Shown here piece by piece: positions 54,777 through 59,351 of a stretch of 64,000 nt of DNA. Location: contig CAMCUD010000003.1 of the NCBI GenBank assembly GCA_945878865.1, forward strand, positions 1-64,000, read 5' to 3'. A model generated the notes under the pieces. It worked only from the letters and a program-made list of their open reading frames with translations. It made no database searches and was not told the DNA's origin. Position 1 is the stretch's first letter. Each line of letters begins with the position of its first letter. The DNA comes from Bifidobacterium breve (GTDB lineage Bacteria; Actinomycetota; Thermoleophilia; Solirubrobacterales; Solirubrobacteraceae). The position numbers were made by a program, and so were the translations under genes.

Positions 54777-56285
54777 ATGGCGACACCTGCGCACACCCCC
54801 ACTGTCCAGCCGCGCCGCTTCGAGCGCAAGGCCCTCGTTCTCGGCGGCGGCCCCGCCGGTCTGACCGCCGGCTACCAGCTCGTCAAGGCCGGCCGTCCTG
54901 TCACGGTCTTCGAGGCCGAGGACCAGGTCGGCGGCATCGCGATGACCGTCGAGCGTGACGGCTACCGCTTCGATCTCGGCGGCCACCGCTTCTTCACGAA
55001 GAACAAGGAAGTCGACGACCTCTGGCACGAGGTGATGGGCGAGGAGTTCCTGCGCCGCCCGCGCCAGTCGCGCATCTACTGGAACGGCAAGTTCCTCGAG
55101 TACCCGCTCGAGGGCATGGACGTCATCAAGAAGCTCGGCCCGATCGAGCTCATGCGCGCCGGCCTCTCGTACCTCAAGGCGGCGGTCTTCAGCCGCAAGG
55201 GCAACGAGCAGAGCCTCGAGGAGTGGGTCTCCAACCGCTTCGGCAAGCGCCTGTACCAGCTGTTCTTCAAGTCCTACACCGAGAAGGTGTGGGGCGTGTC
55301 CTGCACGGAGCTGCGCGCCGAGTGGGCTGCGCAGCGCATCAAGGACCTCTCCTTCGTGTCCGCCGCCAAGGCCGCGTTCTTCGGCGACAAGGACCAGAAG
55401 ATCAAGTCGCTCATCAAGGAGTTCAACTACCCCCGCTTCGGCCCCGGCCAGATGTGGGAGGAGATGACCGACCGGATCCACGAGCGCGGCGGCGAGGTCC
55501 TCATGGAGACCCCCGTCGAGCGCCTGGTCATCGAGGGCAACCGCGTCACCGCGGTCGTCGCCGGCGGCGAGGAGTACCCGGCGGGCCACATCATCAGCTC
55601 GCTGCCGCTGCGCAACGTCGTCGGCATGGCGGGCGACGCCGCCCCGAAGGAGGTCGTCGAGGCGGCCCAGGGCCTGCGCTACCGCGACTTCCTGACCGTC
55701 GCCCTCGTCGTCGACGGCGAGGACCTCTTCCCGGACAACTGGATCTACATCCACGAGCCCGGGGTCACGGTCGGCCGCATCCAGAACTTCCGCTCGTGGA
55801 GCCCGTGGATGGTCCCCGACGAGACGAAGGCCTCCATCGGCATGGAGTACTTCTGCTTCGAGGGCGACGAGCTGTGGGACGCCCCCGACGAGGAGCTCGT
55901 CGCGCTGGCCACCCGCGAGATCGAGCAGCTCGGCCTCACCACGGCCGACAAGGTCGAGAAGGGCTACGTCGTCCGGGTGCCCAAGGCGTACCCGATGTAC
56001 GACGCCGACTACGCCGAGCGCGTCGCCACCATCCGGTCGTGGCTCGACGGCATCGAGAATCTCCAGCAGGTCGGTCGCAACGGCCTGCACCGCTACAACA
56101 ACAGCGACCACTCCATGCTGTCGGCGATGCGGGCGGTGGACAACATCGTCCTCGGCACGGATCACGACATCTGGGCGGTCAACGTGGAGTCGGTCTACCT
56201 CGAAGAGGACGAGACCGATGAGCATCCGTATCGGAATGCTCCCGAGACCAAGGCCATGGGCCAGCCTCTCGGGTCTGAGGCCTGA
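54777..56285 (+). CDS. FAD-dependent oxidoreductase, UDP-galactopyranose mutase/amine oxidase superfamily
   Basis: 502 residues. VLGGGPAGLTAGYQLVKAGRPVTVFEAEDQVGGIA is the FAD Rossmann motif at about 20-55, followed by RFDLGGHRFFTKNKEVDDLWHEVM, LEYPLEGMDVIKKLG and GVSCTELRAEW; the C-terminal GLHRYNNSDHSMLSAM binds the flavin. Family members include UDP-galactopyranose mutase-like enzymes and desaturases. With two glycosyltransferases upstream a role in envelope sugars is likely. Three TAnnnT hexamers (54733-54738, 54740-54745, 54755-54760) precede the ATG, and no ribosome binding site is seen. Confidence 0.82.
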   Translation: MATPAHTPTVQPRRFERKALVLGGGPAGLTAGYQLVKAGRPVTVFEAEDQVGGIAMTVERDGYRFDLGGHRFFTKNKEVDDLWHEVMGEEFLRRPRQSRIYWNGKFLEYPLEGMDVIKKLGPIELMRAGLSYLKAAVFSRKGNEQSLEEWVSNRFGKRLYQLFFKSYTEKVWGVSCTELRAEWAAQRIKDLSFVSAAKAAFFGDKDQKIKSLIKEFNYPRFGPGQMWEEMTDRIHERGGEVLMETPVERLVIEGNRVTAVVAGGEEYPAGHIISSLPLRNVVGMAGDAAPKEVVEAAQGLRYRDFLTVALVVDGEDLFPDNWIYIHEPGVTVGRIQNFRSWSPWMVPDETKASIGMEYFCFEGDELWDAPDEELVALATREIEQLGLTTADKVEKGYVVRVPKAYPMYDADYAERVATIRSWLDGIENLQQVGRNGLHRYNNSDHSMLSAMRAVDNIVLGTDHDIWAVNVESVYLEEDETDEHPYRNAPETKAMGQPLGSEA

Positions 56286-56299
56286 CTCGGTCGTCCGCG

Positions 56300-56428
56300 G
56301 GGCGGGCGAGGGCGTGGGTCCTCATCCTCCGCTGGCTCTCGCGGGTGACATGTCGGTTGTCGGTCCCTCATCGTCTTTGGCCCGCTCGGCGGAACCGCTC
56401 GGATAAGGACCCACGCCCTCGCCCGCCC
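56300..56428. repeat. 129-base element with 23-bp perfect terminal inverted repeats
   Basis: The left arm 56300-56322 (starting GGGCGGGCGAGGGCG) and the right arm 56406-56428 (ending CCTCGCCCGCCC) are perfectly complementary over 23 bp and enclose 83 bases without a reading frame. It sits exactly between convergent genes. It may be a two-way terminator or small RNA, or a miniature inverted-repeat transposable element. I see no clear target-site duplication. Confidence 0.6.
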
Positions 56429-56445
56429 GTGGCGTCGGCGGTGGC

Positions 56446-57081
56446 TCAGTCCGAGCTTCTGGCGTTGATGGAGGAGGCGGCGGCTTCGTAGAGGTGGGCG
56501 CACTCGTCGATGAGCTCGTCGCGGGGGATGTCGAGGGTGCCCTGGAGCCAGGATTCGGCGACGCGGGCGATGCCGCTGACGAGGATCGTGGCGGCCAGCT
56601 CGAGACGCGTGGTGTCCTGAGCGGATCTCGGGCGGGCGCCGCCGAGCTCGTGGGCGACGGCGCGGGCGTAGGCGCCGAGGGCGGCGGTCATCGGGGCGCG
56701 CAGGGAGGGGTCCGCTGAGGCCTCGAGGAAGGCACGCGCCTGGCGGGGGTCGTCGGTGAGCAGCTCCATGCCGGCGGCCAGGGCGGCGCGCAAGCGCGCC
56801 TGCGGGTCGGCGCCGGCGGTCGTGGCGGCCGCGGCGATCCGCGCGTTCACGGTCTCCACTGAGCGGGCGAGCATCGCGAGCAGCAGCTCGTCGCGGTTGC
56901 GGAAGCTCTCGTAGAAGTAGCGGTCGGTCAGCCGTGCGCGGCGGCAGGTCCCGCTCATCGTCACGCCGGCGATGCCCTGCTCGCCGAGGAGGTCGAGGCC
57001 GGCCTCGAGCAGGCGCTCGCGGCGCGCGGCGACGCGCGCGTCGGCGCTGATGCCGCGATAGGGGCGGACGACGGGAGGCAC
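56446..57081 (-). CDS. TetR family transcriptional regulator
   Basis: 211 residues. The N-terminal DNA-binding domain is RRERLLEAGLDLLGEQGIAGVTMSGTCRRARLTDRYFYESFRNRDELLLAMLAR (20-73), and the ligand-binding C-terminal helical domain follows. The start is GTG 57081. It is divergent from the GH15 gene, and an AGTTGATG-N8-CATCAACT operator lies between them, so it probably represses that gene and itself. The ligand is unknown. Confidence 0.85.
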   Translation of the reverse strand: MPPVVRPYRGISADARVAARRERLLEAGLDLLGEQGIAGVTMSGTCRRARLTDRYFYESFRNRDELLLAMLARSVETVNARIAAAATTAGADPQARLRAALAAGMELLTDDPRQARAFLEASADPSLRAPMTAALGAYARAVAHELGGARPRSAQDTTRLELAATILVSGIARVAESWLQGTLDIPRDELIDECAHLYEAAASSINARSSD

Positions 57082-57090
57082 GCCTCAATC

Positions 57091-57142
57091 TTGACAGAGA
57101 GCTACCTCAGAACTGTAGAGTTGATGTAGGGCTCCATCAACT
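57091..57142. promoter_or_regulatory. promoter and TetR operator between tetR and the GH15 gene
   Basis: TTGACA (57091-57096) on the plus strand and TAGAGT (57116-57121) are separated by 19 bases. TACAGT (57117-57112) is a candidate -10 for the minus strand. AGTTGATG (57119-57126) and CATCAACT (57135-57142) form an 8-bp inverted repeat that overlaps the plus-strand -10 and start site. Confidence 0.5.
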
Positions 57143-57161
57143 TTGCCCCCTGGAGGTCTCT

Positions 57162-59351
57162 GTGCTGTCCCTACGTTCCGCCGGCGCGGCGGTCGCCGCG
57201 GTCTCGGCGCTGGCCGGGCCCGCGTCCGCCCTCGCCGGGCCGCTGGCCGACGCCCCCGTGGCTCGGTGCCTGACCGGCAACCCGGCCGACCTGACCGACG
57301 ACCCGCTCGTCGTCCTCGAACGCAACGAGCAGTTCGCGCCGACGATCGGCAGTTCGAACATCAACGCCCAGACGTCGAACGGCCGGATGGCGGCCGGCAT
57401 CGCCGCCGACGGCACGCTCACGACCCTGCGGTGGCCGTCGACGATGTCCTACCAGCAGCTCAAGCACTACTCACCCGATTCGCGGGCACCCCGCGCGGGG
57501 GCTGCGGCGAACGAGGGCGTCGTCCTCGGGCTCGTCGTCAACGGCGGGACCCGCTGGCTGCGCGACTTCCCGCAGCAGACCCAGAGGTACGTCGATGACG
57601 CCAGCGACGAGGTCGAGACGACGTTCACCGACAGCGCGCTCGGGCTGACTGTGACGGTGCGCCAAGTGGTCGGCGGCGACGTCGACGCCTACGTCCAGCG
57701 GGTGACCGTGCAGCGCACGTCGGGCAACGTCACCCCGACGGCGCTCATGGCGTTCGAGAATCTCAGCCTGAACAACTCCAACGTCCCGGCGATTCCCGGC
57801 ACGGACGGCTGCTCCCAGGAGCTCAGCCTCGACAAGGCCCGCTACGACTGGGGCACAGGCGCCATCGTGCACTGGCTGACGGGCAACGACCTCTCGACCG
57901 GCGACCCCGCGAACATCGCGATCGCGATGGGGGTCGGCGGGGGCGTGGACGACTGGCAGGTCGCCGCCGACGCCAAGGACGATCCGCTGGGCCTGCTGCC
58001 CGGCTGGACGTACGACGCGTACCGCGACGCCGCTGACGGCAACCTCAGCCGCGGCGGCTCGTACAACGGCCAGACGACGGGCGCGCTGCGCGCGCCGCTG
58101 TCCTTCAGCGGCAACGTCGCGACGCGGGACGTCGCGCTCGCGGGCGGCAGCACGCAGACCGCTGCGCTGACCACGCTGACGTCCGCGCTCGGCCGCGGGC
58201 AGGCCGCGGTCGCCGCGCAGAAGAAGCAGTCGCTCGCCCCGATCATGGCCGCCGCGCCGTTGCCGCCCACCACGGACGCGAGGGAGCTGCGGCTCGCCAA
58301 GCGCGCCGTCGTCCTGCTGAACACGTCGCAGGCGCCGTCCGGCGCGATCCCGGCGGCGATCAGCGTGCAGCCGCCGTACGCCGAGGACTGGCCGCGCGAC
58401 GGCATGTACTTCGACGAGGCGCTCGACCTCATGGGCGCCCACGACAAGGTCACCGCCCACAAGCGGTTCTACATCCGCACGCAGCGGCGCCCCGGGTTCG
58501 CGCCGGTCGGCGACGTGGGGATCCCGATGGGCAGCTGGGCGATGAACATGTACGACACCGGCGTCGTCTCAGGGCCGATTCCGTACGAGATCGACGAAAC
58601 CGGATTCGGCGGATGGGGGCTGTGGAGCCACTACCAGCACACCGGTGACCGCGCGTACCTCGACGAGGCCTGGCCGGCGATCAAGCGCGCCGCCGAGCAC
58701 TTCGTGACGTGCAAGGACACGCAGACGAATCTGCAGTGCCGGTCCACCGAGGACGACAACCTCGACATCGGCAACCAGCAGACCGTCGCGGGAGCGATCC
58801 CCGGGTGGCTCGCGCTGAAGGCCGGCGCGCAGGCCGCCGCAGTCGTCGGGGACGCTACGGCGCAGGCGCGCTTCGCGGCGCGCCGGGACGAGCTGGCGGC
58901 CGCGATCGACGCGCACCTGTGGGACGAGTCGAAGGGCTGGTACGCGGGCATGGACGTCCCGGCGATCCGCAAGGTCGTCACGTACGTCGGCTGGCCCGAG
59001 CCCTTCAAGCCGGCCACGGACACGCGGATGCAGCGCCACGCCGACGCGACCTGGGCAGCGTTCGCCCCGAGCTTCGACGTCCCCGCGCCGGGCGGCCGCA
59101 CCGCCGGGTTCTACGACGGGCTCGCGCTCATCGCGCTGGCGGACCAGTGGCGCGGAGACCCCGTGAAGATGGATCGCCTCAAGCGGGGCCTGCGGTGGAT
59201 CGCCACGACGCAGGCCACCGCCGACACGGGGCTGCTGGGGGAGAACTGGATCGTCCGTGACGGCGCCGTCAAGACCATCACGGCGATCCCGCAGCTCTGG
59301 CAGCACGCGCTGTTCTACCTCGCATCGCTGGAGGTCTACGGCGCGGCGTGA
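57162..59351 (+). CDS. secreted glycoside hydrolase family 15-like (glucoamylase-type) protein
   Basis: 729 residues with a signal peptide (about 1-28). An N-terminal beta-sandwich (50-300) precedes an alpha/alpha-barrel catalytic domain. The GH15 landmarks are EDWPRDGMYFDEALDLMG (substrate-binding W-x-R-D), PYEIDETGFGGWGLWSHYQHTGD (first catalytic acid near DETG) and IPQLWQHALFYLASLEVYG at the C-terminus. It probably hydrolyses starch-like or other alpha-glucans outside the cell. GGAGG five bases before the GTG supports the start. It is under the divergent TetR operator. Confidence 0.85.
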   Translation: MLSLRSAGAAVAAVSALAGPASALAGPLADAPVARCLTGNPADLTDDPLVVLERNEQFAPTIGSSNINAQTSNGRMAAGIAADGTLTTLRWPSTMSYQQLKHYSPDSRAPRAGAAANEGVVLGLVVNGGTRWLRDFPQQTQRYVDDASDEVETTFTDSALGLTVTVRQVVGGDVDAYVQRVTVQRTSGNVTPTALMAFENLSLNNSNVPAIPGTDGCSQELSLDKARYDWGTGAIVHWLTGNDLSTGDPANIAIAMGVGGGVDDWQVAADAKDDPLGLLPGWTYDAYRDAADGNLSRGGSYNGQTTGALRAPLSFSGNVATRDVALAGGSTQTAALTTLTSALGRGQAAVAAQKKQSLAPIMAAAPLPPTTDARELRLAKRAVVLLNTSQAPSGAIPAAISVQPPYAEDWPRDGMYFDEALDLMGAHDKVTAHKRFYIRTQRRPGFAPVGDVGIPMGSWAMNMYDTGVVSGPIPYEIDETGFGGWGLWSHYQHTGDRAYLDEAWPAIKRAAEHFVTCKDTQTNLQCRSTEDDNLDIGNQQTVAGAIPGWLALKAGAQAAAVVGDATAQARFAARRDELAAAIDAHLWDESKGWYAGMDVPAIRKVVTYVGWPEPFKPATDTRMQRHADATWAAFAPSFDVPAPGGRTAGFYDGLALIALADQWRGDPVKMDRLKRGLRWIATTQATADTGLLGENWIVRDGAVKTITAIPQLWQHALFYLASLEVYGAA

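Follow-up and report, generated by a model that had tools for sequence, protein, structure and literature searches.

The palindrome at positions 56300 to 56428 of the window (the whole stretch of DNA analysed here, 64,000 nucleotides, positions 1 to 64,000 of contig CAMCUD010000003.1) belongs, as judged from sequence comparison, to a dispersed family of hairpins of approximately 105-130 nt. Members combine a long outer stem, the arms of which drift in sequence while remaining paired, with a conserved inner core containing short helices. Covarying arms, wobbles restricted to one strand, and a constant position and orientation next to genes were observed among the copies. From these patterns we infer an RNA function and tentatively favour, at slightly less than an even chance, a spreading, structure-selected RNA hairpin that would block opposing transcription as a one-way terminator or insulator. 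We use the term motif strand for the strand taken to be functional. The window's own genome is referred to as G000 (window copy on contig C3), and the other two genomes of Svornostia, a genus placed by NCBI in the Baekduiaceae, Solirubrobacterales, as G001 and G002.

The preliminary description had reported a 129-base inverted repeat with 23 perfect outer pairs between two convergent genes. Coordinates, arms, and placement were borne out, the element starting 14 bases after the stop of the + gene and ending 17 bases after the stop of the - gene. The arms extend past the 23 pairs to 28, of which 27 are Watson-Crick pairs, leaving 73 bases between them; the sole mismatch, C.A on the + strand, reads U.G on the - strand, which is the motif strand of this copy. 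The whole element (56300-56428, -) scores 138 bits with covariance model R1 and 101 bits with R2, the window copy being part of the building sets of both models (R1, three type-A copies; R2, seven copies).

A single-copy element, as suggested by a DNA search of G000 that hit the element alone, was rejected since R2 gave four further matches in this genome, one of them a contig-end chimera. Other copies, anticipated in the preliminary description for a mobile element, are thus present. In both other Svornostia genomes the element was found by DNA search at 73-75% identity, and diverged further copies in G001 were first seen by pattern and hairpin scans. Model matches in G000 are the window copy, C22:7404 (-), C22:7565 (+), C42:111 (+), and the chimera. 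Five were obtained in G001 (two near 92.8 kb, two near 4.4204 Mb, and one at 4.4237 Mb) and one in G002, giving 1 to 5 copies per Svornostia genome; weaker Svornostia matches above E 0.2 were regarded as chance. Left out of the counts given below are the chimeric copy at C22:71 with its poly-C start, a partial C42 copy, a 70-bp hairpin at G001:C1:2293589 (though it is one of the 12 copies of the 16:5 wobble count), and matches below 35 bits in the more distant genome G208, other than the opposite strand of a counted copy.

The contig with the chimera (L105, G000:C22:1-178) begins with poly-C and a hairpin joined from the halves of a right-hand and a left-hand copy, which could stem from a break in the assembly or else from an inversion that joined two inverted copies. 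The 70-bp hairpin (L093 1503-1572, G001:C1:2293589-2293666) carries GAGCGGTTC at its apex and is possibly a relative in shortened form.

Among 146 genomes of the family, R2 detected beyond Svornostia only a stemless match in G174 (E 0.06), which was rejected due to its unpaired outer stem. Among 232 genomes of the order, only G208, a member of another family, was added (E 2.2e-5 for one genome). With R3, a model that includes a G208 copy, 6 out of 399 genomes of the class gave matches among the candidates scored, namely 3/3 Svornostia and three of the G208 genus; the match of G093 is weak (E 0.005). Strict filters were applied in these wide searches and the best 9 to 26 candidates per genome were scored, so that 6/399 is a lower bound. 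G208 gave at least nine hits in the class-wide search and contains 24 copies in the 0.88 Mb read: 19 in the first 258 kb, with 82-94% identity to the query copy, three in the next 441 kb, and two in the last 185 kb. The first 258 kb comprise nine contigs chosen for holding copies and eleven that were not, the latter with four of the 19. The presumed link between Svornostia and G208 rests on one independent model match together with common size, place, orientation, pairing, and wobble pattern.

Short DNA matches in other genera were attributed to chance, since among the matches listed no such hairpin was present in 20 stretches and further loci checked. Likewise, a pattern match in Arthrobacter sp. 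E3 was rejected for want of such a hairpin, and a pattern scan of the viral_contigs set gave no match. No Rfam family exceeded its gathering score for window positions 56000-56800 or the loci L170, L103, and L156; the best sub-threshold match was a microRNA-type hairpin with 40.9 bits versus a gathering score of 90. A literature search of titles and beginnings of abstracts, with subscription papers outside its scope, retrieved no description of such a family for this group.

Evidence for selection on pairing comes from the arms. In the alignment of 11 copies (A7), double changes were observed in 18 out of 22 pairs (57 cells), a value reached in 0 of 500 shuffles; the shuffles had 9.5 such pairs and slid alignments 3-6. 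The outer stem and the inner helix P3 are paired in 97.9% of the A7 cells. A7 was fitted to the structure, which introduces a bias in favour of pairing. The unfitted alignments are in agreement, with double changes in 8 out of 40 pairs (A3, three copies) and in 14 out of 22 pairs (A5, seven copies), the sequence ends of A5 having been picked for lined-up arms after several scripted trials. Between types and lineages the arms are variable and the core is conserved, while within G208 the arms are fairly alike.

This pattern bears on the miniature inverted-repeat transposable element (MITE) considered in the preliminary description, next to a specialised bidirectional terminator or an antisense RNA. 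The multiple dispersed copies expected of a MITE were found (five matches in G000 including the chimera, 19 in 258 kb of G208), and differing occupancy between relatives agrees with a mobile or duplicating element. In contrast, a classical MITE is not supported: the terminal inverted repeats, which are conserved in MITEs, vary here between types and lineages and covary, and it is the core that is conserved. Quasipalindrome correction likewise changes both arms together. Template switching during replication could thus keep the palindrome perfect without selection on an RNA, would give joint arm changes, and could extend palindromes into the flanks. However, it provides no reason for G.U mismatches on the motif strand only (24:0, see below), and we disfavour it as very improbable.

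If the hairpin acts as an RNA of one strand, leftover mismatches are expected as G.U on that strand. In the model-defined arms of 34 copies (10 of Svornostia, 22 of G208, and 2 others), transition mismatches are of the G.U kind on the motif strand in 24 cases and on the other strand in none, with 12:0 in Svornostia, 11:0 in G208, and 1:0 in the others; the G208 copies L232 and L236 were found later and lie outside this count. The ratio of 24:0 is valid for model-defined arms only. With outer flanks included, ratios of 16:5 (12 copies) and 21:7 (19 copies) were obtained, and 22 transversions occurred in the same 34 copies, mainly where the arm alignment entered the core. A count on energy-folded stems (23:3) was discarded due to its bias towards G.U. 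DNA hairpins also tolerate G.T, and thus single-stranded DNA of the motif strand could be the active form as well.

For all 28 copies located at most 60 bp from a stop codon, the motif strand is antisense to the nearest gene. These are 7 copies of Svornostia, 19 of G208 (12 first seen, 5 on later contigs, and 2 re-annotated), and one each of G093 and G209. Svornostia copies at 64 and 70 bp from a stop agree as well, and one Svornostia copy (G001 92.8 kb, -) has no gene end alongside. Copies less than 400 bp apart always occur as - followed by +, i.e., back to back, in 8 out of 8 complete pairs (5/5 in G208 and 3/3 in Svornostia, two of the latter representing the same site in two species). One more pair, weak and partial, is situated at a contig end, and single copies occur too. 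The rules for orientation, pairs, convergent bias, and wobbles had been written down before the later G208 contigs were examined; on the later contigs the orientation rule was kept by 5 out of 5 copies and the pair rule by one new pair.

In 700 kb of G208, 10 out of 12 occupied junctions are convergent, compared to 103 out of 572 of all junctions. With respect to gene ends, 15 out of 206 convergent and 1 out of 368 tandem ends are occupied (Fisher p 1.6e-6), and one further occupied junction of each kind was found on the last contigs. Genes were called by a simple open reading frame picker, and at least three genes adjoining copies escaped it. In case of L170, L179_12620, and L156, the missed adjoining gene was confirmed by Pfam and the orientation rule is kept; L179, first scored as one of two tandem cases, is actually convergent. 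The gene-side flanks in G208 often read TAGGGAC (e.g., L168, L169, L170, L171, and L206), the TAG of which is likely the stop codon of the adjoining gene in several cases.

An ordinary terminator hairpin of a GC-rich actinobacterium, working in both directions and serving both genes alike, would also lie between convergent genes, with the common core being only incidental, and short plain hairpins occur at junctions that lack the element (sites 2 and 3 of G002, see below). We consider this explanation improbable due to the core common to unlinked loci and two genera, the strand-specific wobbles, the fixed orientation and pair geometry, and the low number of copies per Svornostia genome (1 to 5 only). 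For the specialised bidirectional terminator of the preliminary description, position and hairpin hold, whereas strand-specific wobbles and fixed orientation indicate one-way action.

Site 1, the window site, holds a copy in all three Svornostia genomes; those of G000 and G002 belong to type A, whereas G001 carries another type, B. Behind the neighbouring 729-aa gene, site 2 is occupied by a pair in G001; the corresponding gap in G000 measures 7 bp, and G002 shows a short plain hairpin there. Site 3, between a thiolase and a 214-aa gene, carries a pair in G000 and G001, and in G002 the two genes are separated by 65 bp that include a short plain hairpin. At site 4, a copy follows an acyl-CoA dehydrogenase gene in G000 only. 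Both plain hairpins were read by eye. Given this differing occupancy, copies come and go. A single copy conserved at the same site in all relatives had been regarded in the preliminary description as an argument against mobility; the outcome is mixed, site 1 being occupied in 3/3 Svornostia genomes, unlike sites 2, 3, and 4. An IS110-family transposase gene (PF01548; L152 3453-4631) adjoins the site-3 pair of G001 and does not occur between the same genes in G000 and G002.

Such turnover would also suit a mobile element of the non-autonomous kind with insertion sites behind the 3' ends of genes, e.g., in terminator hairpins, and with a fixed orientation. Orientation, pairing, and palindromes would then result from target choice, with any effect on transcription as a by-product. 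In line with this, the 19 G208 copies are similar and dispersed, occupancy of sites 2, 3, and 4 differs among Svornostia, several G208 copies have their palindrome extended into the flanks by copy-specific letters, and stops beside G208 copies often read TAGGGAC. On the other hand, variation is concentrated in the arms, inspection by eye of the flanks of the 19 G208 copies, the boundaries of which are blurred by extended palindromes, revealed no evident target-site duplication, and no Y1 transposase (PF01797) was found in the three Svornostia genomes searched. Target choice alone explains neither arm covariation nor one-strand wobbles, and we regard this explanation as unlikely, though not negligible.

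According to the favoured reading of an RNA-acting one-way terminator or insulator, the motif strand would be transcribed and the hairpin would end or trim that transcript, thereby shielding the adjacent gene. In the window, the active form would be RNA of the - strand, at the downstream end of the transcript of a TetR-family regulator gene. The hairpin would form just before the polymerase enters the neighbouring amine-oxidase gene from behind and would halt it there or mark the RNA end for trimming, keeping opposing transcription out of the 3' end of this gene. RNase III would likely accept a stem of this length as a substrate. Where a convergent junction holds two copies, each would guard the gene it adjoins. 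The family would spread, and copies would then be retained through selection on RNA structure.

Several observations weigh against this reading. No U-tract is present behind the stem on either strand of the window copy and the G208 copies, and no terminator-like site was predicted for window positions 56150-57250. At bases 11-25 past the model end of 22 G208 copies, T accounts for 59 out of 330 positions on the motif side and 63 out of 330 on the other, with at most 5 per copy. Without a U-tract the element is not a textbook intrinsic terminator and an ordinary intrinsic mechanism is unlikely, so that a core-binding factor or RNase III would be needed. The hairpin of the opposite strand folds with about equal stability: for 56290-56440, the predicted RNA fold has -102.4 kcal/mol (z -7.3) on the + strand and -98.7 kcal/mol (z -9.5) on the - strand, and for neither strand was any of 200 shuffles as stable. 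The window copy hardly tests the orientation rule, both stops being almost equally near (14 and 17 bases), and the stop of the other gene is also within 60 bp for L168, L173_5435, and L236 of G208. For 5 out of 24 G208 copies no gene end was found within 60 bp. The nearest predicted gene end of L167, L173_4038, and L174 is 95-258 bp off and in sense of the motif; that of L171 is antisense, and none was seen for one further copy. The wobbles are partly common by descent, with about 15 separate events by eye, and the later G208 contigs barely test the wobble rule (0:1 in the count with flanks). Finally, G002 has a 218-aa gene between the TetR gene and the element (L065 3076-3732, G002:C10), which has no Pfam match at E 1e-5 and is absent at this place in G000 and G001; the TetR transcript is thus a less certain source of the motif RNA in G002.

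To our knowledge, it is poorly understood how GC-rich bacteria without U-tract terminators prevent read-in from convergent genes. Should one-way action hold, the spread of this repeat family would be linked to a function in insulating transcription. A bolder version, which we find doubtful, is a mobile hairpin family that acts as a self-spreading one-way terminator. It would settle right behind stops in one orientation and be retained through selection on the strand antisense to the guarded gene, and back-to-back pairs would let convergent transcripts overlap, each being stopped just before the other gene.

Uptake-sequence pairs can double as Rho-independent terminators. The family resembles Rho-independent terminators in its hairpins behind stop codons, often between convergent genes, and differs from them by the missing T-run after the hairpin and by a stem of approximately 17-33 bp below an apex of approximately 70 nt that holds the conserved core. 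Repetitive extragenic palindromes and their composite forms (REP/BIME/REPIN) are described in PMC2817692 as intergenic palindromes, often in inverted doublets, whose palindromy is kept by complementary changes, which are reported to facilitate Rho-dependent termination, and which are associated with RAYT transposases of the IS200/IS605 type. As far as these descriptions go, intergenic palindromes, inverted doublets (8 complete pairs here), and complementary arm changes are shared, whereas the unit of 105-130 nt with a structured core differs from REPs of 20-40 bp (PMC3733652). An assignment to RAYT/REPIN was rejected, since the Y1 domain search gave 0/3 in Svornostia and hits in 5 out of 14 control genomes. 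The 127-bp enterobacterial repeat ERIC (RU-1), according to PMC2759123, is dispersed between genes, forms a long stable hairpin, and has TA ends with TA target duplications. Near-equal length, dispersed intergenic location, and the long stable hairpin are common to both. By the same description ERIC is set apart, as the ends here are GGG...CCC and variable between copies, without the TA of ERIC, and the orientation to the neighbouring gene is fixed.

In the window copy, all on the - strand, the 28-nt arms of the outer stem P1 are located at 56401-56428 (5' arm on the motif strand) and 56300-56327 (3' arm). The conserved 5' core GAGCGGTTCCGCCGAGCGGG (56381-56400) holds the 5' strands of P2 and P3, and the 3' core CCCGCGAGAGCCAGCGGA (56328-56345) the 3' strands of P3 and P2. 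Columns of the 5' core are almost all invariant among the three type-A copies, and P3 covaries in the 11-sequence alignment. The element is flanked by a flavin amine-oxidase-family gene of 502 aa (54777-56285, +; PF01593, E 1.3e-28), to which the motif strand is antisense, and by the TetR-family regulator gene of 211 aa (56446-57081, -; PF00440, E 4.5e-8), for which it is the downstream sense strand.

One hairpin filter was applied to 641 kb, made up of the complete 241-kb contig plus 400 kb of G001 picked around its copies, and was passed by nine hairpins, four of the family and five others; in three Markov shuffles of the 400 kb, 2, 1, and 0 passed. A second dispersed repeat of approximately 50 bp with a small hairpin (GATC.CCGCAAGCGGCGATC) adjoins big hairpins at about 1776-1840 of L099 (G000:C22) and about 230-290 of L103 (G000:C42), and about a dozen more matches with E 0.01 or better occur across the three Svornostia genomes. 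What looks like a separate MITE-type element, with AT-richer ends, is situated at G001:C1:4258844-4259013 (L037), where a perfect inverted repeat of 23 bp encloses a loop of 124 bp.
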